DNA from: Patescibacteria group bacterium
GTDB lineage: Bacteria; Patescibacteriota; Patescibacteriia; 2-12-FULL-60-25
Direction of reading: 5' to 3'
DNA: 64,000 nucleotides
NCBI GenBank assembly: GCA_018830865.1
Contig: JAHJRN010000019.1
Coordinates: 1-64,000 of the forward strand
A program made the position numbers and the translations under genes. This document shows, in pieces, positions 12,694 to 19,062 of this stretch (position 1 is the stretch's first letter; every line of letters starts with the position of its first letter). Under the pieces are notes generated by a model, which was given only the letters and a program-made list of their open reading frames with translations, was not told the origin of the DNA and did not search any database.

Positions 12694-13233
12694 TCACGCG
12701 TCTTTCACGTCTCCCTCGAGCGCGGCCTTGAGCTTCTTGTCGAGCTCCTCGTCGGTGATGGCCTTCTCCTCGGCAGGCTTCTCGGCGACCGCATCCGGCG
12801 ACTCGATCGCGGCGACGCCGGACTTGATGTCCTCGGCGACCTTGGCCTTATCCTCCGCCGTCGGCTCCTCACGCTTACGGCGCGGCCGATCCTCCTTCGA
12901 ATCGAGGTTGACCTCCGTGAACTGCACGAGCTCAAACTTCTCCCCTCCCGCCTCGTCGGCACGGAGGATAAGGTGACGGAGCACCTCGTTCGACATGCGC
13001 AGGATCTCATCAAGTTTCGCGACCGTCGTCGGCTCCATCTCGACATACGTCAGGATGTAATGGCCGTGGCGGTTCTTCTTGATGGGATACGCGAAACGGA
13101 ACTTGCCGAGACGCTTGGTCTCGACGAGACGCGCACCGACTTTCTCGATGAGGGCCTTCACGTTGCCCTCGACTTTCCCCACGTCTTCGTCCGTATAGGA
13201 CGATGAGACGATATACAGCAGTTCGTACTGCAT
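12694..13233 (-). CDS. rpsF: 30S ribosomal protein S6
   Basis: About 179 residues: a normal S6 domain (MQYELLYIVSSSYTDEDV, FRFAYPIKKNRHGHYILTYVEM, LRHLILR) followed by an unusually long charged extension of about 80 residues rich in Glu, Lys and Ala. I chose the ATG at 13233, where the family pattern MxxYE begins; an in-frame ATG at 13245 is the alternative. It is the first gene of the rpsF-ssb-rpsR operon behind a promoter at 13333-13361. Confidence 0.92.
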   Translation of the reverse strand: MQYELLYIVSSSYTDEDVGKVEGNVKALIEKVGARLVETKRLGKFRFAYPIKKNRHGHYILTYVEMEPTTVAKLDEILRMSNEVLRHLILRADEAGGEKFELVQFTEVNLDSKEDRPRRKREEPTAEDKAKVAEDIKSGVAAIESPDAVAEKPAEEKAITDEELDKKLKAALEGDVKDA

Positions 13234-13239
13234 GACATC

Positions 13240-13361
13240 GCCCATGGAACGCCCCGCCCGCTGGGCAAGGTCCCACGGATCCTTGAGAATCCGGGGATTG
13301 GCCGACCATGGGATTTATGAATGAGTGAGGAGACGGTAACGGAAGACGGAAAAAACGTCAA
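13240..13361 (-). promoter_or_regulatory. promoter and leader of rpsF-ssb-rpsR
   Basis: Minus strand TTGACG (13361-13356), 17 bases, TACCGT (13338-13333). The leader of about 90 nt contains a stem CGGAT/ATCCG with flanking CCC/GGG (about 13273-13300) and a nearby CCG. This is where an S6:S18 autoregulatory motif sits in other bacteria; I cannot confirm that motif by eye. Confidence 0.5.
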
Positions 13362-13451: not shown

Positions 13452-13482
13452 AGAAAAAAGGGCCGCGAGAAGGGTGCGGCCC
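13452..13482 (-). terminator. terminator of coiled-coil gene A
   Basis: Minus strand stem GGGCCGC-ACCCTTCTC-GCGGCCC followed by TTTTTTCTTT. Confidence 0.8.
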
Positions 13483-13518: not shown

Positions 13519-15729
13519 CTAGGAGCCGTTGCTGTGTCGGCGGCGCTTGCGGCCGCGCTTCGCGTCCTTGATGGACACGACCGTCGAACGATCGGATTTC
13601 GCGTCCGTCACGGACGTCTCTTCTTTATCGCAGCCCTCCTCATCTCCTGTTTCCTCCTCGACTTTCTCCGGAGGGGGAGGTGGTGGGGGCTTCGAATCGT
13701 AGTTTGGCGGCCGAGGCCCCGCCTCAGGGTAAGGTTGGCGTACCTCCACGGGAATCTCATGCCCCCACAGGTTGGTCTGAATGCGACCACGGGACTTTCC
13801 CTTGTCCACGGGAGGTCTCACCGCCCCGGGCGCCGACGGACGCTCCGTCTTTCGCGAGGGCTGTTGCGACTGTCCGACGCGAACGTGAGGTCCTTCGTCG
13901 AGATCGAGGTCGACCCGCACGAGTGGGGGGGAGGCTTCGGAATATCGGTCGGAATCGGGTGCGAGCACCGTCAACCGTTCCTGAGGATCCTCCGGCTCGG
14001 CCGATACCGATTGCGCGAGCGGATTCTCTTGGCGAACTGCCGTCTGCCGGAGGTCTTCAGGGACCACGACCGGTGGACTTCCGGGAAACATGCGCGCGCC
14101 GCCGAGCTGCTGCGATGCAAGCGACGGCTGTTCGGTGTCGGAGAGGGGGACCTCCTCGATGACCGGTATAGGCGCCGGCTGAAGCGACTCGTTGGCGACG
14201 CCATCGATGATGGCGTACCTACCGTCCGGTTCCTTGCTCTGGCTCGCCGAAAGGTGTTTAGCGATCAAGTCGACCGCCTTCGTCGCAACGCCGAGATTCA
14301 TGGGCTCGGTCCGGCGGCGGCGCGATTCTTCCTCGCGACGCTTCGCCAGTACATAGATCCACTCGACGGCCGCGATCATCTCGATCTCGTTCGTCTCACA
14401 GAGCTCAGCGAACGTCGTAAGCAGGACCGCTGCCCTCTTGAGCATCTTGTCCTGGTGCTCTTCGGATTTCTCCAGCGCGACGGCATCGTTGCCGACCTCA
14501 CCGAACGCCGAGAATGCCTCGATGGTGGCGGTGGAAGCCGACTTACGCCACTTGAGGTGTTCGACCTCCGACTGGAGCTCGGTGAGAAGCGCTTTCTTTT
14601 CGGAGAGCGCCTGTTCGGCCTGTTGCTTACTGGTGGCCAGGTCGAGATTCGCCCGCTTCAGTCCATTGAGCTGCGCCTCGAGCGCCTCATTCTTCTTGAG
14701 CGTGATGTCATTCTGCCTCTTGAATAGGATGGCGCACTTAGCCTCGGCGATGTGTCGCTCCGAGAGCGTGGCCTTCTCCACTTCGAGTTGCTTGACCTGC
14801 TCGCTGACAGTCTTGTGGTCGCGCTCCAAATTGCGCTTGGTCTTGGCGTCGCGCCGAAGGGACGTGAGCTCCGCCTTCTCGTGCTTGAGTGCGTCGCGCT
14901 CTTCCTTGAGGTCGAAGAAGGCCCTCTGCTTGAAGGCTTCCGCTTGTGCCTGGCTGGAACGCCTTCCACCGATGAAGGCCAACCCCACGAAGATCGCGAG
15001 ACCGAAGACGTACCACGTACCGAAGTTGTTGGAGATGGTGCCGGCGATGTCCGCCTTGGACGCGAGCGCGGCGTTCTTCTCCTCGAGCTCCTTGTTGGCC
15101 TTGCGGAGCGTGGCGCTCTCGCCCTGGGACGCCTTGGCCTCATCTTGGATCTTGCGCACGTCTCCGGTCGGGACCGGGACGCCACCGAGGTCCTTGAGCT
15201 TCTCGCTGAGGCACGCGATGCTCGTCTGGCACGTCCGGAACTCGTCGAGCTCCTTGTTCTTCTCCTCGAGGGACTGCACCGGCTCCATCTTGATCAGGAG
15301 CCGACCGGTCTCTCCGGCCACGAGCGCGACGATCGGGGTATTCTCGTTCTGCACGCATGTGTTCCAGACCTCGATGTCCCGTGAAGGATTCCCCTCGAAG
15401 CCGTCGCCCTTGTGGTGACAACTCGGGATGAACCTCGGGCGGATCTTGCGCCCCTGCTTGTCCATCTCCCAGTTCTCGGGGATATCGAGCGCCTTGTAGC
15501 TCAACGGAACGCCGGTCGCCTCCTTGTAGGCGCGAGCGAGCGAGAGCTTCTCGCTTGCGAGGACATGGAACCCCGTTTCGGGTCCCACCTCGACGACCCA
15601 GCCCTTCTCGTTGGTCTCGACGACCCGATACGTGTTGGGCTTCGGCATCGCCGACGCACCCTGAGCGAACGTGAGGAACAACGCCATGACGACGAGCCCC
15701 CACAACCGACGCGACATTGTCTGTTTCAT
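13519..15729 (-). CDS. bitopic coiled-coil envelope protein A (paralogue of 15948-17759)
   Basis: 736 residues. Signal peptide 1-27 (ends GASA), then an extracytoplasmic domain of about 170 residues with cysteines at 104, 125, 167 and 173, a short coiled coil (about 195-225), one transmembrane helix (about 237-255, rich in Gly), then a long cytoplasmic coiled coil (about 260-430) and a Pro-rich, basic C-terminal tail. GGAGG stands 8 bases before the ATG. Its neighbour B has the same plan, including a 21-residue spacing of the first cysteine pair, and the same promoter layout. I recognise no named family. The topology suits an envelope-to-cytoplasm tether or sensor. Confidence 0.8.
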   Translation of the reverse strand: MKQTMSRRLWGLVVMALFLTFAQGASAMPKPNTYRVVETNEKGWVVEVGPETGFHVLASEKLSLARAYKEATGVPLSYKALDIPENWEMDKQGRKIRPRFIPSCHHKGDGFEGNPSRDIEVWNTCVQNENTPIVALVAGETGRLLIKMEPVQSLEEKNKELDEFRTCQTSIACLSEKLKDLGGVPVPTGDVRKIQDEAKASQGESATLRKANKELEEKNAALASKADIAGTISNNFGTWYVFGLAIFVGLAFIGGRRSSQAQAEAFKQRAFFDLKEERDALKHEKAELTSLRRDAKTKRNLERDHKTVSEQVKQLEVEKATLSERHIAEAKCAILFKRQNDITLKKNEALEAQLNGLKRANLDLATSKQQAEQALSEKKALLTELQSEVEHLKWRKSASTATIEAFSAFGEVGNDAVALEKSEEHQDKMLKRAAVLLTTFAELCETNEIEMIAAVEWIYVLAKRREEESRRRRTEPMNLGVATKAVDLIAKHLSASQSKEPDGRYAIIDGVANESLQPAPIPVIEEVPLSDTEQPSLASQQLGGARMFPGSPPVVVPEDLRQTAVRQENPLAQSVSAEPEDPQERLTVLAPDSDRYSEASPPLVRVDLDLDEGPHVRVGQSQQPSRKTERPSAPGAVRPPVDKGKSRGRIQTNLWGHEIPVEVRQPYPEAGPRPPNYDSKPPPPPPPEKVEEETGDEEGCDKEETSVTDAKSDRSTVVSIKDAKRGRKRRRHSNGS

Positions 15730-15835
15730 CTCATCACCCTCCGCCAGTTGTCGATGTACGACCTACGGTTCCGGCCCGTACCTTCCAGAGTCTGACCGGA
15801 TTCCGTTGCGCCTCCCCCTATTGAGAGGACGTCTC

Positions 15836-15864
15836 ACCTCATCATAAATTGAGGTCCCTGTCAA
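15836..15864 (-). promoter_or_regulatory. promoter/operator of coiled-coil gene A
   Basis: Minus strand TTGACA (15864-15859), 3 bases, ACCTCA, 8 bases, TGAGGT (15841-15836). The hexamers ACCTCA/TGAGGT form an inverted repeat at the spacer and -10 position. The same arrangement precedes gene B at 17802-17830. Confidence 0.6.
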
Positions 15865-15892
15865 GTTAGCATAGGACACCAAGACGAGCCAT

Positions 15893-15923
15893 AAATAAAA
15901 AAGCGCGGAAGAGAATCCGCGCT
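15893..15923 (-). terminator. terminator of coiled-coil gene B
   Basis: Minus strand stem AGCGCGGA-TTCTCT-TCCGCGCT followed by TTTTTATTTA. Confidence 0.8.
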
Positions 15924-15947
15924 GAGTGAAGGTACAGGAGGTCCGCG

Positions 15948-17759
15948 TCACACGGACGTGGCCATGGGAGACGTCGCGAGTTCAAGCAGTTCGCTCGAAA
16001 GCGGCCCGAGGCCGGGGCTTGATGTGGACGGTCCAGCAGGTGCTGGAGATTCTTCTCCTTGAGAGGTCCTTCCGATGAGGCGGAAGACGTTCAACAGGTC
16101 CGGCATCTCCGAAGGAGAGACGCGGAAGACCAGGCCGACCCGATCCGTGAACTGCCGGAGATTACCCATGAGCTCGACTTCAGTCGCCGCGAGCTCCTCC
16201 ATGACGGCTTCGCGTTCGGCCATGCCCCGCAGGTCATGCTTCCCGTTCTGGTCGGCTACGGATTCGCTGTTCAGCCGTCCGACCGTCGCGGCAAGCGCAC
16301 CGAGGGTACCGTATTCGCCGAGAATCTTCCGATACAGCTCACGCGTGTCCGGAGGGATGGCCTCATACGGCTTCTGCTCCAGTTCCTTCTGGATGTCCTC
16401 CGCGATGGCAGTGGAGTCGCTGACCTCCTTGAGGTCCTGTTCCGCTTTCGCGAGCGCCTCAGCGAACGTCGCCTCGCTCACGCGCGCCTCGGTGGCGTCC
16501 TGGAGAGCGGCGTCGAGCTTAGACGTCAGCTCATCCGTGTACTTGTCGAGAGCGAGTTTTTCGCCCTCGAGTTCCGTCACCCTGACTTGGAGAACAGCGT
16601 GCTCTTCGGTCACGACCGCGAGCCTACGTCCGAGATCCGGGTCCTGCGCCGGAAGCGTCGTGCGCTCTTCGTTCGCATTCTCACGCTCCTGCAGAGCCTT
16701 CTGGGCTTCCTTGAGCTTGCGACGTAGGTCGGTCTGCTCCGCGGTCAAGGCGACGAACTTCTGCCGCATCTCCTCACGTTCGCTCCTGGCGAACACGAGC
16801 TGCTTCTGAATCTCGGCCTTCTCCTTCCCGAGCGAGACGATTTTCAGTCGGAGATCCTGCACCGTGGGGTCAGGACGCGGTTCCTCACCGGGTCGCGGAA
16901 GGCTCTTCTGCGTGATCTGCTCGGACGGACGCTTGCCCGATTTCGCGGGTGACAGTTTGGCTTCCATCATGGCGACGGATGCCTTGACGGGCTCCTTCCG
17001 TCCGCGGCTCCGTCCGAACTGGAAGCCCGCGACGAGGCCGATGGCGAGGCACATAAGGCCCATTACTACCAAGTCGGACGCCCATTTTCCGCGCGTCGGT
17101 CGGGTATCGAGCTCCGCGATGGCGGCATCACGTTCCTTCGTGACGGCGACGACCTCGGCCGCGAGTTCCGCCGTGCTGCGCCGCGAGGCGCTGTCTGCGA
17201 ACTTGGTCGCGTCGATCTTCACGATCGGTTTGTCGTTCGACGCCGCTTTGACCTTCGTCAGGAGACAGTCATCCTGGGAAGTCAGGTCCGTGCAGCCGAT
17301 ATCGGTGAGCGCCTTATCGATAAGCTCGAGCCGAAGCAGCTTGTCCGGAAGAAGCTCCATGGTCTCCATCGGGATCCAGAGATAGGCGCCAGCGATGAGC
17401 GCGATATTCTGGTCCTTCGAGGCGCATCCGTCCCAGATGGACGGGTCATGCGGGTTGCGCTTATTGTACGGAGGGTCGCTCGTGAAGCAAACCGCGATGG
17501 TGCTACGAGGGTTCGCCGTATGCAGAATGCGCCATGTCAGCTCGGTGTTGGTCGTGCGTCGATACTCGACCGCGAACCGTGAGACGACCTGATCCGCGTC
17601 GGTCCGGGGACCGATATGGACCACTGGACCGCCGTCGTTCACTCCCACGATAGGGAACGTCCGCTCCGGCGGCATGTCGGCTGCGGCCGCGCTCGAGACG
17701 AGTAGAAGGATCGCCGCGACGGCAATCCCGAGGACCCGTCGAAAAAGCCGGGTATTCAT
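15948..17759 (-). CDS. bitopic coiled-coil envelope protein B (paralogue of 13519-15729)
   Basis: 603 residues with the same plan as protein A: signal peptide (1-27, AAILLLVSSAAAA), extracytoplasmic domain with cysteines 91, 112, 156 and 165, one transmembrane helix (about 228-247), and a cytoplasmic coiled coil of about 270 residues (about 290-560) with a short Pro/Ser tail. Conserved blocks between A and B include VV.IGP/VVEVGP near the start and IALIAG/IVALVAG before the second cysteine pair. I chose the start at 17759 because AGGAAGG precedes it; the longer ORF has no signal. Gene A follows after the terminator at 15893, so each has its own transcript. Confidence 0.8.
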   Translation of the reverse strand: MNTRLFRRVLGIAVAAILLLVSSAAAADMPPERTFPIVGVNDGGPVVHIGPRTDADQVVSRFAVEYRRTTNTELTWRILHTANPRSTIAVCFTSDPPYNKRNPHDPSIWDGCASKDQNIALIAGAYLWIPMETMELLPDKLLRLELIDKALTDIGCTDLTSQDDCLLTKVKAASNDKPIVKIDATKFADSASRRSTAELAAEVVAVTKERDAAIAELDTRPTRGKWASDLVVMGLMCLAIGLVAGFQFGRSRGRKEPVKASVAMMEAKLSPAKSGKRPSEQITQKSLPRPGEEPRPDPTVQDLRLKIVSLGKEKAEIQKQLVFARSEREEMRQKFVALTAEQTDLRRKLKEAQKALQERENANEERTTLPAQDPDLGRRLAVVTEEHAVLQVRVTELEGEKLALDKYTDELTSKLDAALQDATEARVSEATFAEALAKAEQDLKEVSDSTAIAEDIQKELEQKPYEAIPPDTRELYRKILGEYGTLGALAATVGRLNSESVADQNGKHDLRGMAEREAVMEELAATEVELMGNLRQFTDRVGLVFRVSPSEMPDLLNVFRLIGRTSQGEESPAPAGPSTSSPGLGPLSSELLELATSPMATSV

Positions 17760-17801
17760 CGGTGACCTTCCTGTGTTCAATTGAGAAACGAGCACGTGAC
17801 G

Positions 17802-17830
17802 ACCTCACCACGAAATGAGCCGCCCGTCAA
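17802..17830 (-). promoter_or_regulatory. promoter/operator of coiled-coil gene B
   Basis: Minus strand TTGACG (17830-17825), 3 bases, GGCTCA, 8 bases, TGAGGT (17807-17802). The spacing is identical to the element before gene A. The left half-site differs from ACCTCA at two positions. Confidence 0.6.
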
Positions 17831-17886: not shown

Positions 17887-19062
17887 ATGGACCACTTCCT
17901 CGTCTTCGGCCGACATCCGCGCTTGAGTCTCGCGGAATTTTCCAGCACTCGGCCCCACGCGTACGTCCGGGCCCTCGCAGGCGCCGGTGCGGTCGTACGC
18001 GATGCGGACTGGGACGGTGCCAGCCTCATGCAGGCCCTCGGCGGATGCGTGAAGGTCGGTGACGTGCATCTCGAGATGCCGCATACCGACCTCGACGCCG
18101 ACGTCATCACCGACCTCCTCCGTTCCAAGCTACGTGGCGGACGCGTCATCTTCGGCCTGTCGGTCCTCGGCGGGACACCGGCGGCGCGTACACGGCTCGA
18201 GAAGCTCGCGCTCGGTGTGAAGCGCGCGTGCTCCATGACCGGCGCTTCGGCACGATGGGTCACTTCAAAACAAAACGCGTCGCTCTCGCCCGCGGCGGTC
18301 GCGAAACTCCATCTCACGACCGACGGCTACGACATCGTCCTGCTTGTACATGGCGAGACCGTCTCCATCGGCCTCACGACCGACGTGCAGGATGCGGACG
18401 CCTGGAGCCTACGCGACTACGGACGCCCCATCCGCGACGACGAGAATGGCATGCTGCCGCCCAAGCTCGCGCGCATCATGGTAAACCTCGCGAGGGTAAC
18501 GGACGGCGGCACGATGTGCGATCCCTTCTGCGGTTCCGGAACCGTACTTATGGAGGCTGCGCTCGCGACGCACGCGTCGACCATCATCGGCAGCGACATC
18601 GAGGAACGACAAGTCGCGTCCACGCAGGAGAACCTCGCCTGGTGCGTCGGAAAGCGCATCTTCCGCAAGGACGACATGAAGCGCTTCGACCTCATCACCT
18701 CGGACGTACGCACGCTTACGAAGCATCTGAAACCCAACTGTGTCGACTCGGTCGTGACCGAAGGGTCCCTCGGACCTCTACTGTCCGGACATGAGACGCT
18801 CCCGACGCTCCAGAAGAATGTCGAGGGCATCACCACGCTTTGGCGCGACACGTTCGCAGCTCTCCATCCGCTCGTACGAAAAGGTGGACGTATGGTCTGT
18901 GTCTGGCCGGCGTTCAAGACCTCGCATGGCATGGCGCGCATCGACCTCACAGACGATCCGGGTCTCGAAGGATGGCGCATGGCCGACGGGGATCCGCTCC
19001 TCTACCACCGACCCGGACAGCGCGTGATGCGAAGAATCGTCATCCTCGACCGATCGGCCTGA
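17887..19062 (+). CDS. Trm11/TrmG10-like RNA (guanine-N2) methyltransferase family protein
   Basis: 391 residues. The C-terminal Rossmann methyltransferase has the SAM motif DPFCGSGTVLMEAAL, preceded by RDYGRPIRDDENGMLPPKLARIMVNLA, the segment that precedes it in Trm11 and archaeal TrmG10 enzymes. An N-terminal domain of about 170 residues sits where THUMP lies. The expected catalytic DPPY-type motif is replaced by TEGSLGPLL, so activity or target may differ. I chose the start at 17887, 7 bases after TAGAAT (17874-17879), giving a leaderless message; the earlier ORF start overlaps the promoter of gene B. Confidence 0.75.
   Translation: MDHFLVFGRHPRLSLAEFSSTRPHAYVRALAGAGAVVRDADWDGASLMQALGGCVKVGDVHLEMPHTDLDADVITDLLRSKLRGGRVIFGLSVLGGTPAARTRLEKLALGVKRACSMTGASARWVTSKQNASLSPAAVAKLHLTTDGYDIVLLVHGETVSIGLTTDVQDADAWSLRDYGRPIRDDENGMLPPKLARIMVNLARVTDGGTMCDPFCGSGTVLMEAALATHASTIIGSDIEERQVASTQENLAWCVGKRIFRKDDMKRFDLITSDVRTLTKHLKPNCVDSVVTEGSLGPLLSGHETLPTLQKNVEGITTLWRDTFAALHPLVRKGGRMVCVWPAFKTSHGMARIDLTDDPGLEGWRMADGDPLLYHRPGQRVMRRIVILDRSA

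Follow-up and report, generated by a model that had tools for sequence, protein, structure and literature searches.

Two adjacent genes, A and B, are encoded on the minus strand of the window, the 64,000-nucleotide stretch of Patescibacteria DNA analysed here, and are flanked by rpsF and a divergent RNA methyltransferase gene (Table 1). As the preliminary description had reported, each product has a signal peptide, an ectodomain with four cysteines, one transmembrane helix and a long inner part; the ectodomain, given there as about 170 residues, measures about 205 in both proteins from the sequence features. The cysteines are located at positions 104, 125, 167 and 173 of A and 91, 112, 156 and 165 of B, so that the first pair is 21 residues apart in both, as had been noticed, and the second pair 6 residues apart in A and 9 in B. 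The inner flank of the transmembrane helix shows an excess of Lys and Arg in A and B. The long cytosolic coiled coil that had been assigned to both genes has fair support in B, from the heptad signal and SMC-type coiled-coil matches at residues 301-475, and weaker support in A. The SMC, SH3_and_anchor and eukaryotic coiled-coil matches of the family were regarded as coiled-coil or transmembrane noise.

Table 1. Positions of the A and B genes, their parts and their flanks in the window.
Feature	Position	Strand	Description or basis
Gene A	13519..15729	minus	736 aa; N-terminal third paralogous to B; helical cytosolic part of its own, with a Pro-rich tail
Gene B	15948..17759	minus	603 aa; LysM-like ectodomain behind the signal peptide, a single TM helix, then a long cytosolic part (helical/coiled-coil)
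A signal peptide	15646..15729	minus	hydrophobicity and AxA site
B signal peptide	17679..17759	minus	hydrophobicity and AxA site
A LysM-like core (predicted), residues 33-148	15286..15633	minus	alignment to B
B LysM-like core (predicted), residues 38-133	17361..17648	minus	AlphaFold pLDDT about 90 mostly; OsCEBiP match; hhalign to LysM
A first cysteine pair, C104-C125	15355..15420	minus	alignment
B first cysteine pair, C91-C112, inserted loop within	17424..17489	minus	alignments
A transmembrane helix, 236-255	14965..15024	minus	sequence features
B transmembrane helix, 230-249	17013..17072	minus	sequence features
A long Pro/Gly-poor helical region, about residues 260-420	14470..14952	minus	weak heptad signal
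B coiled-coil region, about residues 300-480	16320..16862	minus	heptad signal, SMC-type coiled-coil matches
B promoter (-35 TTGACG, 17-nt spacer ending CGTGG, -10 TGAGGT)	17802..17830	minus	
A promoter (-35 TTGACA, 17-nt spacer ending TATGA, extended -10, -10 TGAGGT)	15836..15864	minus	
B terminator, hairpin and T-run	15902..15923	minus	
A terminator, hairpin GGGCCGC-N9-GCGGCCC then T-run	about 13453..13482	minus	read from sequence
UPF0020/Trm11-type RNA methyltransferase, divergent neighbour, conserved locus flank	17887..19062	plus	
rpsF (then ssb), other conserved locus flank	12694..13245	minus	

Alignment of A with B yielded a Smith-Waterman score of 110, whereas none of 2000 shuffles scored above 55, and the two proteins match each other in a search of the genome with an E-value of 2.0e-8. 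BLASTP aligned residues 1-173 of A with 1-156 of B (E 2.8e-13), a stretch that begins with the signal peptide and reaches the second cysteine pair. Judged by these alignments, A and B are true paralogues in the signal peptide and the ectodomain; the preliminary description had staked its case on the two ectodomains being alignable, and they are. The cytosolic parts gave no alignment (E>2). Therefore, the same plan that had been ascribed to both genes holds as homology for the head, but the cytosolic parts are alike in architecture only.

A homologue of B was first found in two genomes, in each case oriented divergently to a gene for the same UPF0020-type methyltransferase. The methyltransferase was searched in 41 genomes of the bacterial family and the DNA upstream of it was read; in most of these genomes, one, two or three genes of the A/B architecture lie in the interval between it and rpsF. 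A profile made from 43 ectodomains and run on the 41 genomes matched 31, confidently in 30 and marginally in G015, and the locus of the family is nearly always this interval. The gene is single-copy in 14 of the 30 confident genomes and present in two or more copies in the other 16; 12 of these 16 have tandem copies at the locus. Some copies lie off the rpsF locus or some kilobases away (G013:C3:961324, G025:C2:402, G030:C1:422830 and G026:C6:3875). As the remaining 10 of the 41 genomes gave no match to the ectodomain profile, the function can be dispensed with or replaced; in G022 nothing separates rpsF from the methyltransferase gene. Among 285 genomes drawn from the class, matches to the head domain occurred only in members of one bacterial family, and the class matches outside it (E about 5e-5), which covered the stalk and transmembrane helix only, were not counted. 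On this survey the A/B gene family is restricted to one bacterial family, some of whose genomes were deposited under the name Candidatus Uhrbacteria. The A/B family corresponds to no named model of Pfam or NCBIfam. The tandem copies group by genus group in a tree of all ectodomains, and therefore tandem duplication has occurred more than once. In the close-group tree, A, B and the copies of G004 and G021 split from the rest with a support of 100; the branches inside this clade, which bear on the timing of the A/B duplication, have supports of 44-51.

Each gene was found to have its own promoter and, as described before, its own terminator. The upstream regions of A and B are identical at 21 of 29 positions, a value reached by 0.6% of the window's 946 other upstream pairs; the preliminary description had made its case depend on such a likeness, which here is better than that of 99% of these pairs. 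A genome scan with the shared pattern, as had been suggested, returned exactly two sites at ≤2 mismatches, those of A and B from which the pattern was drawn, and the reversed pattern had no genome site within 2 mismatches. The pattern had been taken for a shared operator. The shared block (TTGACR, 17 nt, TGAGGT) is real, but it reads as a sigma70-type -35/-10 pair, and its RRCTCA part is not conserved in relatives; the palindrome ACCTCA-N8-TGAGGT, which relatives do not conserve, was rejected as an operator in favour of the -35/-10 pair. At the same place the relatives have the consensus TTGACN-N12-TATGRTG, in which an extended -10 (TRTGn) precedes a -10 element that has G at -11 and T at both -12 and -7. 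Compared across relatives, the shared block of A and B is a sigma70 -35/-10 pair with an extended -10, conserved in the family at this locus. It shares with sigma70 extended -10 promoters the TTGAC -35, the 17-nt spacer, TRTGn and T at -12 and -7; unlike in these, position -11 at the locus is almost always G, not A, with A in only 1 of 28 locus sites, which are orthologous and hence not independent. Elsewhere in this DNA, TTGAC sites show TA...T in 58 cases and TG...T in 8. The B promoter departs from the extended -10 in the -16 region, where it reads CGTGG. Duplication with retention of promoter and architecture, as first proposed, is supported and recurs in relatives.

The looser TATGRT form gave 26 matches in 360 kb, all at the A/B-family locus. 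TTGAC-N13-TATGRTG gave 47 matches in the 41 genomes, with 1 for the reversed control; about 20 lie off the locus, many of them upstream of unrelated genes with no common function visible. The -11A form of the promoter is commoner, with about 68 matches. In view of the off-locus sites and the commoner -11A form, the motif was regarded as a promoter variant and not as proof of a dedicated regulon. A special sigma factor was likewise rejected: the genome encodes several sigma70-region-2 proteins, but no motif was found around them.

The fold of the ectodomain was approached through structure models and profile alignments. The AlphaFold model of the B ectodomain with its transmembrane helix has a mean pLDDT of 80.5, exceeding 90 over most of the core, and the core of the G024 homologue was modelled with a mean pLDDT of 88.9 and a pTM of 0.73. 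Foldseek gave no match at E≤0.001 for the two ectodomain models and did not list LysM. In a second look with VIA, which re-aligns only chains ranked by Foldseek, the best small-domain match of the G024 model was the LysM domain 4uz2 (Z 4.1, rmsd 1.7 Å over 48 residues), followed by SleL 4s3j (Z 3.9, rmsd 5.0 Å over 76 residues) and the fungal MoCVNH-LysM (Z 2.9), and the core of the B model matched the LysM receptor OsCEBiP (Z 2.9); none of these Z values is high enough to prove a fold, a Z under 8 being no proof by itself. Using hhalign against LysM domains from proteins of relatives, the B-led profile scored 20.1 (shuffled maximum 16.7), rising to 25.0 (shuffled maximum 16.5) when the loop columns were removed, and a relaxed alignment threshold brought the whole 43-column motif into the expected register. 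The L045-led core alignment scored 19.5 against a shuffle maximum of 21.1, at the edge of the shuffles. Searching the PDB sequences with the ectodomain profile returned nothing, and PF01476 (LysM) is absent from the Pfam families listed for 43 family members, whereas it was detected in other proteins of the same genomes.

Taken with the models, these matches make it probable that the ectodomain is LysM-like. In the predicted LysM-like core, an inserted loop with a conserved C...W..C separates helix 2 from the last strand; in the alignments, both cysteines of the first pair and the Trp between them are invariant in the close group. Like the LysM domain of wall hydrolases, the A/B head has a predicted strand-helix-helix-strand core, an Asn ending helix 2 and a PGxxIxI-type last strand, but it falls below Pfam detection, carries the Cys-pair loop, occurs in one copy and is membrane-anchored. 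It is rather unlikely that the resemblance arose by chance and that the ectodomain instead has a small Cys-bearing fold of a new kind. Such a reading accounts for the empty Pfam/NCBIfam and Foldseek searches and the middling Z values; however, LysM chains from unrelated proteins come first in the second look at one model and also fit the core of the other, and hhalign found the register of the match independently. The A/B family suggests a LysM-like domain that escapes standard models. The only Pfam LysM matches of the genome are in an M23-type protein with two LysM domains at 62457-63938 (plus strand), and a tandem-LysM protein occurs in nearly all relatives.

We propose, with a probability of about one half, that the A/B family is a peptidoglycan-anchored single-pass membrane scaffold with a variable cytosolic arm, because A and B are paralogous, the same architecture recurs at the same locus, the models are confident, LysM matches were obtained and the inner flank of the membrane helix is richer in K/R (39 of 42 family members). 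The N-terminus would be exported by Sec and the signal peptide cleaved. The LysM-like module, its inserted loop closed by a probable disulfide, would bind the glycan of peptidoglycan, and the stalk would connect it to the single membrane helix. Inside the cell, the long helical and often acidic arm may oligomerise and hold partner proteins at a wall-fixed site, such as the pole, the division site or a secretion/pilus site. Through repeated tandem duplication the arm would diverge, with the promoter and the wall-binding head retained, resulting in several arms on one type of anchor. Against this proposal count the empty Pfam and Foldseek searches for LysM, the low Z values, the L045-led alignment at the edge of the shuffles, the ten genomes that have no match, and the cytosolic arms of the family, in which no conserved client-binding domain was found. 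The organisation of the envelope, poles and attachment sites of ultrasmall Patescibacteria is little known, and the A/B family, with a fixed chromosomal place in most of the bacterial family and a probable wall-binding head coupled to a diversifying inner arm, offers a concrete entry point.

A comparable layout is found in FimV/HubP, which share with A and B a signal peptide, one transmembrane helix and a long cytosolic region, highly variable among relatives; their extracytoplasmic LysM-like domain has a probable counterpart in the A/B head. The LysM-like domain of FimV is required for peptidoglycan binding and polar anchoring (PMC12918733), and the need of a protein of the same layout for this domain is counted in favour of the scaffold. 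Unlike in FimV/HubP, the LysM-like core of A and B is broken by the Cys loop, no other named domain was found and the proteins occur in Patescibacteria. The C-terminal TPR domain of FimV has no Pfam/NCBIfam match in A, B and five relatives. The cytosolic region of PpFimV contains 25% D+E and has a pI of 3.75, whereas those of A and B contain 17% D+E and have pI values of 6.0 and 5.1, respectively, with most family members at 4.9-6.1. Since the TPR domain and the strong acidity are absent, A and B may work like FimV/HubP without being members of that group. As a doubtful extension, Uhrbacteria might have arrived, independently of FimV/HubP, at a wall-anchored landmark system of their own. In it, one LysM-like head with the Cys-bounded loop would have been duplicated repeatedly in place under the conserved promoter, and the arm, diverging each time, would let each copy organise a different machine at a shared site of the envelope.

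The preliminary description had placed A and B in an envelope process such as cell-cell attachment or signalling. The LysM-like head points to binding of peptidoglycan or another GlcNAc polymer rather than to either role in particular, though both are possible. LysM receptors and chemoreceptors pass signals through a membrane helix, and the single-pass layout with coiled arms, together with the use of the LysM fold in receptors such as the matched OsCEBiP, would suit a sensor whose ectodomain binds a glycan or muropeptide of the cell itself, its host or a competitor and signals through the helix to the coiled coil. We consider it unlikely, as an output domain, be it kinase, HAMP, methyl-accepting or another, was found neither in A and B nor in five relatives, and the arms are not conserved. 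Less likely still is a role as a surface adhesin, with which the ultrasmall cell would hold on to a host cell through the glycan or wall of that host. The ectodomain does evolve fast (mean column identity 17% over 43 members) and cultivated Patescibacteria are episymbionts (PMC12206443), but about 205 residues with one small module are short for crossing a wall, and most of the protein is intracellular. Equally improbable is the suggested heteromer with A and B as obligate partners: the genes are adjacent with the same promoter type and homologous heads, and tandem copies are kept in 12 genomes, yet 14 of the 30 family-bearing genomes manage with a single copy, the duplications are independent and the two arms, of A and of B, cannot be aligned with each other.

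Some minor observations concern sigma factors and other promoters. A small sigma factor of ECF size is encoded at 35679-35879 (minus strand). The genome has six sigma70-region-2 matches, many for 1.14 Mb, and two of them are on G000:C31, a contig that encodes Bacteroidetes-like sigma and FecR-type proteins and is possibly a contamination of the bin. Three lipoprotein-like genes with low-complexity Asp/Ala-rich stretches (L193, L194 and L217) carry the -11G type of promoter. Upstream of rpsF (L043-L077), a conserved CCACTAAT-like stretch lies about 34 nt past TTGAC promoters and is perhaps an rpsF leader element.
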